Origin: Isoptericola cucumis
GTDB lineage: Bacteria > Actinomycetota > Actinomycetes > Actinomycetales > Cellulomonadaceae
Reading direction: 5' to 3'
DNA: 60,733 bases
Assembly (NCBI RefSeq): GCF_014635665.1
Contig: NZ_BMDG01000019.1
Location: forward strand, 1-60,733
The translations under genes were made by a program, and so were the position numbers. Shown piece after piece: positions 53,598 through 56,848 of this stretch; the stretch's first letter is position 1, and every line of letters starts with the position of its first letter. The notes below the pieces were generated by a model. That model worked only from the letters and a program-made list of their open reading frames with translations, had not been told where the DNA came from and made no database searches.

Positions 53598-54935
53598 TCA
53601 GAGGAACTGCAGGAAGCGGCGCAGCTCGTACGGCGTGACCTGGGCGCGGTAGGCGTCCCATTCCTGGCGCTTGTTGCGCAGCACGTAGTCGAAGACGTGC
53701 TCGCCGAGGGTCTCCGCGACCAGCTCCGAGCTCTCCATGAGGTCGACGGCGTCGTCCAGCGACTGCGGCAGCGGCGCGATGCCCAGCGAGCGCCGCTCGC
53801 GGTCCGTCAGCTCCCAGACGTCGTCCCCGGTGGCCTCGGGCAGGTCGTAACCGTGCTCGATGCCCTTGAGGCCGGCGGCGAGCAGCACCGCGAACGCCAG
53901 GTACGGGTTCGCGGCCGAGTCCAGGGCGCGGTACTCCACCCGCGCGGAGTTGCCCTTGCCCGGCTTGTACATCGGCACCCGCACGAGGGCGGACCGGTTG
54001 TTGTGGCCCCAGCAGATGTAGCTCGGCGCCTCGGCGCCGCCCCACACGCGCTTGTAGGAGTTCACGTACTGGTTGGTGATCGCGGTGATCTCCGCGGCGT
54101 GCACCAGCAGGCCGGCGATGAACTGCCGCGCCGTCTTGGACAGCTCGAACTGCGCGCCCGGCTCGTGGAAGGCGTTGCGGTCCCCCTCGAACAGTGACAG
54201 GTGCGTGTGCATCCCCGAGCCTGGCTGGTCGGCCATCGGCTTGGGCATGAACGACGCGAACACGCCCTGCTCGAGGGCCACCTCCTTCACCACGGTGCGG
54301 AACGTCATGAGGTTGTCCGCGGTGGTGAGGGCGTCGGCGTAGCGCAGGTCGATCTCGTTCTGGCCCGGGCCGGCCTCGTGGTGGGAGAACTCCACCGAGA
54401 TGCCCATCGACTCCAGCATCGTGATGGCGGCGCGCCGGAAGTCGTGCGTGCTGCCGCGGGCCAGGTGGTCGAAGTAGCCGCCGTTGTCGACGGGGACCAG
54501 CGGGTCCTCCGGGGAGGCGACCTGGTTGAACAGGTAGAACTCCACCTCGGGGTGCGTGTAGAAGGTGAATCCGCGGTCGCTCGCCTTCGCGAGCGTGCGC
54601 TTGAGCACGTTGCGCGAGTCCGCGAGCGACGGCTCGCCGTCCGGCGTGAGGATGTCGCAGAACATGCGCCCGGTACCGTGCCGCTCGCCGCGCCAGGGAA
54701 GCACCTGGAACGTGGTGGGGTCGGGCTTGGCGATCATGTCGGCCTCGTACACGCGCGTGAGGCCCTCGATCGAGCTGCCGTCGAAGCCGATGCCCTCGGC
54801 GAACGCCTGCTCGAGCTCGGCCGGGGCGACCGCCACCGACTTGAGGATGCCGAGCACGTCGGTGAACCAGAGCCGGATGAAGCGGATGTCGCGCTCCTCG
54901 ACCGTGCGGAGCACGAACTCCTGCTGCCTGTCCAT
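53598..54935 (-). CDS. glnA2: glutamine synthetase-like protein GlnA2
   Basis: This 445-aa member of the glutamine synthetase family has GIGFDGSSIEGLTRVYE, HPEVEFYLFN, FSHHEAGPGQNEID and FMPKPMADQPGSGMHTHLSLFEG. The adenylylation Tyr loop is replaced by DDVWELTDRERRS, so it cannot be modified by GlnE. The family includes both true synthetases and gamma-glutamylpolyamine synthetases, which this sequence alone does not decide. The ATG at 54935 is 6 nt after CAGGAT, so leaderless. It is followed by glnE. Confidence 0.9.
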   Translation of the reverse strand: MDRQQEFVLRTVEERDIRFIRLWFTDVLGILKSVAVAPAELEQAFAEGIGFDGSSIEGLTRVYEADMIAKPDPTTFQVLPWRGERHGTGRMFCDILTPDGEPSLADSRNVLKRTLAKASDRGFTFYTHPEVEFYLFNQVASPEDPLVPVDNGGYFDHLARGSTHDFRRAAITMLESMGISVEFSHHEAGPGQNEIDLRYADALTTADNLMTFRTVVKEVALEQGVFASFMPKPMADQPGSGMHTHLSLFEGDRNAFHEPGAQFELSKTARQFIAGLLVHAAEITAITNQYVNSYKRVWGGAEAPSYICWGHNNRSALVRVPMYKPGKGNSARVEYRALDSAANPYLAFAVLLAAGLKGIEHGYDLPEATGDDVWELTDRERRSLGIAPLPQSLDDAVDLMESSELVAETLGEHVFDYVLRNKRQEWDAYRAQVTPYELRRFLQFL

Positions 54936-54941
54936 GCCCCC

Positions 54942-54989
54942 ATCCTGCACGACAAGTGTTAAGAGCGGATGACATGCGACCGATACGCT
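54942..54989. promoter_or_regulatory. divergent leaderless promoters, glnA2 and panB
   Basis: CAGGAT on the minus strand (54942-54947) is 6 nt before ATG 54935; TACGCT on the plus strand (54984-54989) is 7 nt before ATG 54997. Confidence 0.55.
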
Positions 54990-54996
54990 GTCCGCC

Positions 54997-55842
54997 ATGG
55001 CGACAGGCGACAACGCAGTTCAGGCTGCCGATGCTCCCCGGCGGCGGCGCTACCGGGTCCACCACCTCGCGCAGGCGAAGGAGCAAGGCTCCAAGATCAC
55101 CATGCTGACGGCGTACGACGCGGTCACCGCCGCCGTCTTCGACGCCGCCGGCATCGACGTCCTCCTCGTCGGCGACTCCATCGGCAACACCATGCACGGG
55201 CACACGACGACGCTGCCCGTCACGGTCGACGACATGATCCCGGCGGCACGTGCCGTGGCTGGCGCCGCCCGGTACGCGCTCGTCGTGGTGGACCTGCCGT
55301 TCGGGTCGTACGAGGCGGGCCCGGAGCAGGCGCTGGCCACCGCCGTGCGGTTCATGAAGGAGACCGGCGCCGCCGCGGTCAAGCTGGAGGGCGGCCGCAG
55401 CGTCGCCCCGCAGATCCGCGCGATCACCGACGCCGGCATCCCCGTCGTCGGGCACCTCGGCTTCACCCCGCAGTCGGAGCACGCGCTCGGCGGGCACCGG
55501 GTGCAGGGTCGGGGCGAGGACGCCGCGGAGGCCCTGTGCGCCGACGCGCTCGCGGTCCAGGAGGCCGGCGCGGTCGCCGTCGTCCTCGAGATGACGACGG
55601 TCGAGGTCGCCGCCCGGGCGACCGAGATCCTGCAGATCCCGACCATCGGCATCGGCGCGGGCCCGGCGACCGACGGCCAGGTGCTCGTCTGGACGGACAT
55701 GGCGGGCATGACCGAGTGGACGCCGCGGTTCGCCCGACGGTTCGCCGAGCTCGGCACCGCGCTGCGCGAGGCCGCCGAGGACTACGCGGCCGACGTGCGC
55801 GGGGGCACGTTCCCCGACGCCGCCCACTCGTTCGAGCGCTGA
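54997..55842 (+). CDS. panB: 3-methyl-2-oxobutanoate hydroxymethyltransferase PanB
   Basis: This 281-aa enzyme makes ketopantoate in pantothenate synthesis. Motifs are [47 protein letters not shown] and [12 protein letters not shown], with catalytic Glu in VVLEMTTVE. The ATG is 7 nt after TACGCT. No panC or panD is near. It is divergent from glnA2, an arrangement also known in mycobacteria. Confidence 0.96.
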
Positions 55843-55858
55843 CGCCCCGCCCGCACGG

Positions 55859-56056
55859 TCACTCCTTGGCGCGCCAGTCGGCGTCCTCCTCGTCCCACGA
55901 CTCGTTGCGCTGCTGGGCCGTGTCCAGGGCCTTCTCGGCCGCCTCGCGCGTCGGGTAGGGGCCCATGCGGTGCGTCCAGCTCGAGCGGGCCGCGCTCTCC
56001 TCGACCTCGCCGGTCGCGGTGTTGTACCAGTACTGGACCGGGTTGTTGTCGCTCAT
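55859..56056 (-). CDS. small SPOR-like conserved protein
   Basis: This 65-aa protein has the pattern [34 protein letters not shown] and [13 protein letters not shown], resembling a small actinobacterial family with a SPOR-like core. No membrane helix or signal peptide is seen. CAGGAT is 6 nt before the ATG, so its mRNA is leaderless. It is divergent from ppgK with only 27 bp between start codons. Confidence 0.75.
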
Positions 56057-56062
56057 AGGTCG

Positions 56063-56077
56063 ATCCTGCACCAGGAT
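56063..56077. promoter_or_regulatory. back-to-back leaderless promoters with 3 bp between -10 boxes
   Basis: On the minus strand CAGGAT (56063-56068) is exactly 6 nt before ATG 56056. On the plus strand CAGGAT (56072-56077) is exactly 6 nt before ATG 56084. Only CAC separates the boxes, so they form an inverted repeat and cannot both bind polymerase at once. Confidence 0.65.
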
Positions 56078-56083
56078 GAGCCC

Positions 56084-56848
56084 ATGACGCAGGTATCCGT
56101 GGCACTGGGGATCGACATCGGCGGCTCGGGGATCAAGGGGGCTCCGGTCGACCTGGCCACCGGGGAGTTCGCGGCGGAGCGGGAGCGCATCGCCACCCCG
56201 CAGCCGTCGACGCCGGAGGCGGTCTCCGAGGTTCTCGCCCGGCTCGTCGAGGGGTTCGACCTGCCCGACGACGCCCCGGTGGGAGTCGCGTTCCCGGCGC
56301 CGATGGATCACGGCGTGGTGCGGTTCATCGCCAACCTGCACAAGTCGTGGAAGGGCGTGGACGTCCCCGGCCTCGTGCGGGACGCCACGGGGCGCGAGGT
56401 GCGCGCCGTCAACGACGCCGACGCCGCAGGGGTCGGCGAGGACCGCTACGGCGCGGCACAGGGTCGCGACGGGGTGGTGCTCGTCGTCACGCTCGGGACG
56501 GGGATCGGCTCAGCCCTGCTCGTGGACGGGGTGCTCGTGCCCAACACCGAGCTCGGGCACCTCGAGATCGACGGGCACGACGCCGAGCGCCGCGCGGCCG
56601 AGTCGGCGCGGGAGCGCGACGACCTGTCGTGGGAGAAGTGGGCGCACCGGCTCCAGCGCTACTTCGAGACGGTGGAGATGCTGCTCTCCCCCGACCTGAT
56701 CGTCGTGGGCGGAGGCGTGAGCAAGCAGCACGACAAGTTCCTCCCCCTGCTGGACCTGCGCGCGCCGATCATCCCCGCGACGCTGCGCAACCGCGCGGGC
56801 ATCGTCGGCGCCGCGGCGCTGGCCGCCGACCCGGTGCACGGCCACTGA
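56084..56848 (+). CDS. ppgK: polyphosphate glucokinase PpgK
   Basis: This 254-aa ROK-type kinase phosphorylates glucose using polyphosphate (or ATP) and is typical of actinobacteria. It has [17 protein letters not shown] (phosphate loop), [18 protein letters not shown] and [23 protein letters not shown], whose Glu and His bind glucose. The short zinc-less C-terminus agrees with the PpgK group. The ATG is 6 nt after CAGGAT (leaderless). Confidence 0.93.

Follow-up and report, generated by a model that had tools for sequence, protein, structure and literature searches.

The window, by which we mean the whole 60,733-nucleotide stretch of Isoptericola cucumis DNA that was analysed, carries two divergent genes separated by 27 bp (56057..56083). 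On the plus strand, ppgK (56084..56848) encodes a polyphosphate glucokinase of 254 aa from the ROK family (PF00480). Its match to the polyphosphate--glucose phosphotransferase model NF045942 scores 343.5 bits against a cut-off of 250, which bears out the gene name given in an earlier note on this DNA. On the minus strand, an open reading frame lying in a longer open frame (55859..56056; start codon ATG 56056-56054) encodes a protein of 65 aa that the same note had labelled SPOR-like. The likeness to PF05036 exists, but it is weak and sub-threshold (E 0.0018; 19 bits against a cut-off of 21) and covers part of the domain (profile positions 35-65 of 76). Transcription is predicted to start at 56084 for ppgK and at 56056 for the SPOR-like gene, 28 bp apart. 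The neighbouring genes seen encode PanB, a STAS-domain protein and a universal-stress protein, and none of them is a DNA-binding regulator by Pfam.

Read directly, the plus strand of the intergenic region is AGGTCG-ATCCTG-CAC-CAGGAT-GAGCCC. The hexamer CAGGAT occurs in it once on each strand, on the minus strand (56068..56063) 6 nt from the ATG at 56056 and on the plus strand (56072-56077) 6 nt from the ATG at 56084, with CAC between the two copies, just as the earlier note had placed them. Both genes therefore have an xAxxxT hexamer, a putative -10 element, within 6-8 nt of the start codon, in each case at a spacing of six nucleotides (N6). The two hexamers together make a perfect inverted repeat (6-3-6), ATCCTG-CAC-CAGGAT (56063..56077). 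Allowing at most one mismatch, this repeat has a single match in the window, where shuffled sequences lead one to expect 0.03, and the exact pattern ATCCTGN3CAGGAT has one copy in the 4.46-Mb genome, with none for a control pattern. The window alone cannot discriminate between a -10 element and a Shine-Dalgarno site, since the AGGA within CAGGAT is well placed for a Shine-Dalgarno sequence, 7 nt from the ATG on both sides; here the hexamers may even serve in both capacities. In both copies the first letter is C, as opposed to the T of the actinobacterial consensus TANNNT, and for this reason the predicted promoters of ppgK and the SPOR-like gene may be weak.

The earlier note had also placed the -35 element of each promoter inside the other gene. 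The usual spacing does fall within the first codons of the opposite gene, but no good -35 hexamer is found there. At a spacer of 17, the expected -35 position of the ppgK promoter (56049..56054, plus strand, inside the SPOR-like gene) reads TCGCTC, with 2/6 matches, and that of the SPOR-like promoter (56086..56091, minus strand, inside ppgK) reads TGCGTC, with 1/6. Across spacers 16-18 neither promoter has a good -35 hexamer, the best reaching 3/6, and TTGTCG (4/6) sits at spacer 20 from the ppgK element, where it is not convincing as a -35. Leaderless-type sites of the window's genome carry little -35 signal in general, with TTG at spacer 17 in 4 of 98. For M. tuberculosis promoters, the portion of PMC3898074 used here likewise describes TANNNT as dominant and a -35 consensus as not found. 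Scanning 55400-56800 with a consensus sigma-70 model gave 0 promoter-like sites, but 0.0 were expected, so this result is uninformative.

Hexamer counts ahead of start codons in the window's genome

In order to separate the two readings of CAGGAT, we counted hexamers at fixed distances before ATG in 1.24 Mb of this genome, a sample made up of the window and 60 further stretches and amounting to about 28 percent of the total. Counts at N6 were compared with the mean of seven control distances in the same reading phase, a restriction adopted because in-frame GAT..ATG codons flood one phase. In this sample, TANNNT-N6-ATG occurred 44 times against 5.43 at the control spacings, CANNAT-N6-ATG 24 times against 5.43 (4.4-fold) and NAGGAT-N6-ATG 15 times against 1.71 (8.8-fold). 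CAGGAT itself was found 7 times against a mean of 0.29; four of the seven sites lie inside the window and include both focal hexamers, so the NAGGAT and TANNNT counts weigh more. In the same 1.24 Mb, no enrichment at N6 was seen for NAGGAC (31 against 33.86), NAGGAA (3 against 2.29), NCNNAT (25 against 32.29) or NGNNAT (39 against 34.43), and that of GANNAT was not clear (16 against 10.71). The signal is thus carried by A at the second position and T at the sixth, the pattern of a -10 element, and AGGA alone does not carry it. NAGGAG, the true Shine-Dalgarno core, was also enriched in the sample (69 against 40.71), indicating that both modes of initiation exist in this genome.

In the own-genome sample, four divergent ATG/ATG pairs separated by 8-80 nt have hexamers of this kind before both starts, and the focal pair is the tightest of them. 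A second divergent leaderless-type pair within the window lies at 54933-54999, between glnA (start 54935, minus strand; CAGGAT-N6-ATG) and panB (start 54997, plus strand; TACGCT-N7-ATG). Ahead of glnA, CATCCTGC or CATCTTGC recurs in several relatives, as does a TGTTA..TGACA-like block at 54957-54974, which we take to recall a GlnR box. At L119:11893-11930 (G000 contig 5), divergent genes for an EamA transporter and a TetR regulator have TATAGT before both ATGs, and these hexamers lie inside a perfect inverted repeat, GACTATAC-N6-GTATAGTC, which is possibly a TetR operator over two leaderless promoters.

Hexamers and gene order among relatives

We compared the window's own locus with the best 80 of 456 named ppgK loci, a selection that favours close relatives (81 loci in all). 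On the ppgK tree, the window's genome clusters with Isoptericola. SPOR-like homologues occur in 66 of these best 80 relative loci; over all 81, the gene is adjacent and divergent to ppgK in 32, lies about 1 kb off in 35 and was not found in 14. In each of the 35 non-adjacent loci, the intervening gene is map, encoding methionine aminopeptidase (named by similarity and by its M24 family). The hexamer search required A at the second position, T at the sixth and a distance of 5-8 nt, leaving A at the fifth position and the exact distance free.

On the SPOR side, 39 of the 67 loci with the gene have NANNAT at a distance of exactly 6 nt from the start listed first; these comprise 31 of the 32 adjacent loci and 8 of the 35 with map between. 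The 39 hexamers are CAGGAT in 29, CACGAT in 3, CAGAAT and AAGGAT in 2 each, and CAAGAT, GAGGAT and GAAGAT in 1 each. L015 has no such hexamer before its SPOR start, and L054, where TAGAAT-N5 precedes a distant ATG (87 nt upstream of the match to SPOR), was not counted. On the ppgK side, xAxxxT is found at N6 or N7 in 28 of the 32 adjacent loci and no such hexamer in the other four (L019, L034, L037 and L038). The 28 hexamers are CAAGAT (11), CAGGAT (7) and CACTAT (1), which make up 19 Isoptericola-type loci, and GACGAT in 9 Promicromonospora loci; GACGAT belongs to the GANNAT class, for which the window's genome shows no clear enrichment at starts. In these 9 loci the gap is 14 nt, the hexamers overlap by two bases (AT) and the predicted starts lie 15 bp apart.

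The main rival to leaderless -10 elements takes the two CAGGAT hexamers as Shine-Dalgarno sites, AGGA being 7 nt before each ATG, with leaders that begin in the opposite gene and transcripts that overlap antisense. Of the map-present loci among these 80 that have no SPOR N6 hexamer, 21 of 27 have a Shine-Dalgarno-like site recorded for their first start, which suggests that the SPOR-like gene is leadered in many relatives; the other six (L041, L052, L054, L068, L073 and L079) list none. However, among the loci that keep xAxxAT, AGGA is gone in 21 of 28 on the ppgK side and in 7 of 39 on the SPOR side, and in the 1.24-Mb sample enrichment follows the base after AGGA, T being favoured and C and A not. 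On both counts we mostly reject the Shine-Dalgarno reading, which we regard as unlikely. The role proposed in the earlier note, that of leaderless -10 elements, is better supported by the genome statistics and the comparison. As a side observation, a Shine-Dalgarno site precedes the SPOR-like gene in many Cellulomonas loci (L042, L053, L070 and others) and a leaderless-type -10 precedes it in most Promicromonosporaceae loci and in Luteimicrobium; the predicted initiation mode of this gene has changed between these groups.

Gene order bears on how two leaderless-type elements came to face each other. Among the best 80 loci and our own, the stop codon of map and the start codon of ppgK share the sequence ATGA in 31 of the 35 map-present loci, so that ppgK directly follows map there. 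Also in 31 of the 35, the side of the SPOR match that faces map has a TAGACT-N6/7-ATG no more than 300 nt away, and this element is present in 7 of the 8 map-present loci that have the SPOR hexamer. A divergent leaderless-type SPOR/map pair thus probably predates the SPOR/ppgK arrangement; the SPOR-map gap in L024 is 36 nt, counted by eye. In the DNA around the 32 adjacent loci, map was not found. Paraoerskovia marina (L038) is without map, and its tree neighbours L044 and L060 keep it. Relocation of map elsewhere in the genome was considered and rejected: the window's genome has five M24 peptidase genes, the best of which is 36.6% identical to the map gene of L048 (L048:1491-2480); in the remaining 34 map-present loci, map reaches 64.5-93.6% in the same comparison. 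The gene was therefore probably lost in this lineage, not moved.

On a ppgK protein tree (midpoint-drawn, unrooted), SPOR/ppgK adjacency needs four changes, at least two of them forced by well-supported branches, and the tree does not settle the number of map losses. With the tree unrooted, it is the presence of map in outer groups that gives the direction of change. The arrangement in the window looks derived, the simplest account being that map was lost, perhaps more than once, and that ppgK then came to lie beside the SPOR promoter.

A more elaborate version of this history sees a partner-swapping module. Here the older SPOR/map leaderless pair would have lost map, possibly by recombination at GATCCTG, and the vacated spot would have gone to ppgK more than once; the overlapping hexamers of Promicromonospora would couple glucose phosphorylation from polyphosphate to the SPOR-like protein by polymerase exclusion. 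Of the 35 map-present loci among the best 80 and our own, 24 do have GATCCTG within the final 27 nt of map, and the Promicromonospora junction reads like a SPOR promoter joined to a map tail at a common GATCCTG. Upstream of SPOR, GATCCTG was found in L024 alone among the 35, and L024 has no copy in map; since none of the 35 map-present loci carries both copies, we lowered our estimate of the partner-swapping account slightly, to a level at which we hold it to be quite improbable. Loss of map through this microhomology is a conjecture, and the Promicromonospora junction is the one place that suggests it.

Expression of the two genes

Taking these lines together, we consider it probable that the 27-bp gap holds two separate, divergent housekeeping promoters, each driven by its own -10 element and starting at its own ATG, that the SPOR-like gene had its -10 first and ppgK acquired one after map loss, and that the two promoters fire independently. 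The sequence, the genome-wide enrichment, the conservation pattern and the gene order are direct observations, and from them we infer the start sites, the promoter activity and the sigma factor. In both directions transcription would begin with the A of the start codon, so that ppgK and the small SPOR-like protein would each have a leaderless mRNA. The predicted order of events begins with the state seen in relatives, in which map would be read in the ppgK direction from its leaderless-type TAGACT, usually overlapping ppgK by ATGA. Once map was lost in this lineage, ppgK would have adjoined the SPOR promoter, next to which the SPOR-like gene's -10 would be the older part and a second CA(A/G)GAT element would now serve ppgK. 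Both promoters would fire at low basal rates and interfere little or not at all; exclusion of one polymerase by another would become important only on strong activation of either promoter.

The earlier note had gone further and proposed a true switch, in which polymerase at one promoter shuts off the other so that the two proteins are made alternately. Geometry is on the side of this proposal, as the -10 boxes lie 3 bp apart and the predicted starts 28 bp apart, and two polymerases, given the size of their footprints, could hardly sit on both promoters together. No activator or feedback was seen among the neighbouring genes, which tells against a switch. In the part of PMC12825309 used here, competition in E. 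coli bidirectional promoters appears once one direction is strongly activated, but basal activity is too low for it, with none in 5 of 5 promoters tested. The leaderless divergent pair prpD/Rv1129c of M. tuberculosis, in the part of PMC3898074 on which we draw, is upregulated together. Alternate expression is not supported by these comparisons, and we judge it very improbable; by the same reasoning, mutating one CAGGAT would be unlikely to raise the other gene under basal conditions.

The perfect 15-bp inverted repeat could also be the operator of a dimeric regulator controlling both genes, and it was examined in the 18 chosen Isoptericola-type loci (L015 omitted), where the gap is 27-28 nt. 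Because the pattern used for choosing them fixes 8 of the 12 hexamer letters, only the other columns are informative; a looser pattern returned the same 18 matches across all 81 loci. The free hexamer columns vary at the third letter only, the CG next to the minus-strand hexamer is constant, and the four bases by the SPOR ATG and most of those by the ppgK ATG vary. The block CGATCYTGCNNCARGATG recurs in all 18 loci, and it has 24 matches in the genome at up to two mismatches against 7 for the reversed control. Of these matches, however, one is exact, one has a single mismatch and the others all have two; three of the two-mismatch matches share one sequence, which appears to be the beginning of 16S rRNA. 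No regulon stood out clearly from the whole-genome searches, and the adjoining genes include no regulator, as described above. The repeat is still perfectly symmetrical in 8 of the 18 loci, among them L017 with a third-letter change on both arms, and no longer so in 10 (ATCCTG..CAAGAT); this loss argues against a symmetrical protein reading the site. The conserved letters are also those expected of two -10 boxes, and we consider an operator very improbable.

Comparison with known systems

Among open-licence papers, none was found that names polyphosphate glucokinase and methionine aminopeptidase together, none on leaderless start sites of Cellulomonas and, judged by title and the start of the abstract, none on bidirectional or overlapping leaderless promoters that deals with the ppgK/SPOR pair. 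The two independent promoters that we favour nevertheless have several relatives in the literature. Leaderless genes with TANNNT about 12 bp before the start codon account for roughly a fifth of actinobacterial genes in the portion of PMC3160421 used here, and 27% of M. tuberculosis starts lack TANNNT according to that of PMC3898074. Like the TA-led leaderless genes of Actinobacteria in these two sources, the focal pair has xAxxxT about 12 nt before each start codon and no -35 consensus; unlike them, it has C as the first letter and two elements facing each other across 3 bp.

The bidirectional promoters of E. coli and other prokaryotes, as described in the part of PMC12825309 used here, also have divergent starts tens of bases apart, symmetrical -10 letters and mutually exclusive binding. 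There, however, the -10 is shared and the starts are most often separated by 18 bp, and commonly also by 10 or 23, whereas the hexamers of the window are separate, 3 bp apart, with predicted starts at 28 bp. The sequence arrangement in the window thus falls outside bidirectional promoters strictly defined by a common -10, and the Promicromonospora version, with its overlapping hexamers and closer predicted starts, comes nearer to one. The relatives provide a series of natural variants with separate hexamers, overlapping hexamers or a different partner gene. Comparing these variants could reveal if exclusion between polymerases has consequences in bacteria other than E. coli, and by what route a gene deprived of its operon leader gains a promoter.

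Further comparisons come from gene pairs of M. tuberculosis. In prpD/Rv1129c (PMC3898074, in the portion cited), two divergent genes are both leaderless, as predicted here; there prpD is paired with its own regulator, and at the focal pair no regulator is seen and the gap is 27 bp. The lysG/lysE pair, in the part of PMC5648196 used here, likewise combines a short intergenic region, overlapping promoters, an inverted repeat and one leaderless start, but it is controlled by the LysR-type product of one of its genes and has a 108-bp gap. Closely juxtaposed divergent promoters are described as common in M. tuberculosis, and divergent leaderless pairs are already known, in the same portion of PMC3898074. 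The arrangement in the window is a compact instance of known principles, and a clean, testable case of two predicted leaderless promoters within 27 bp.
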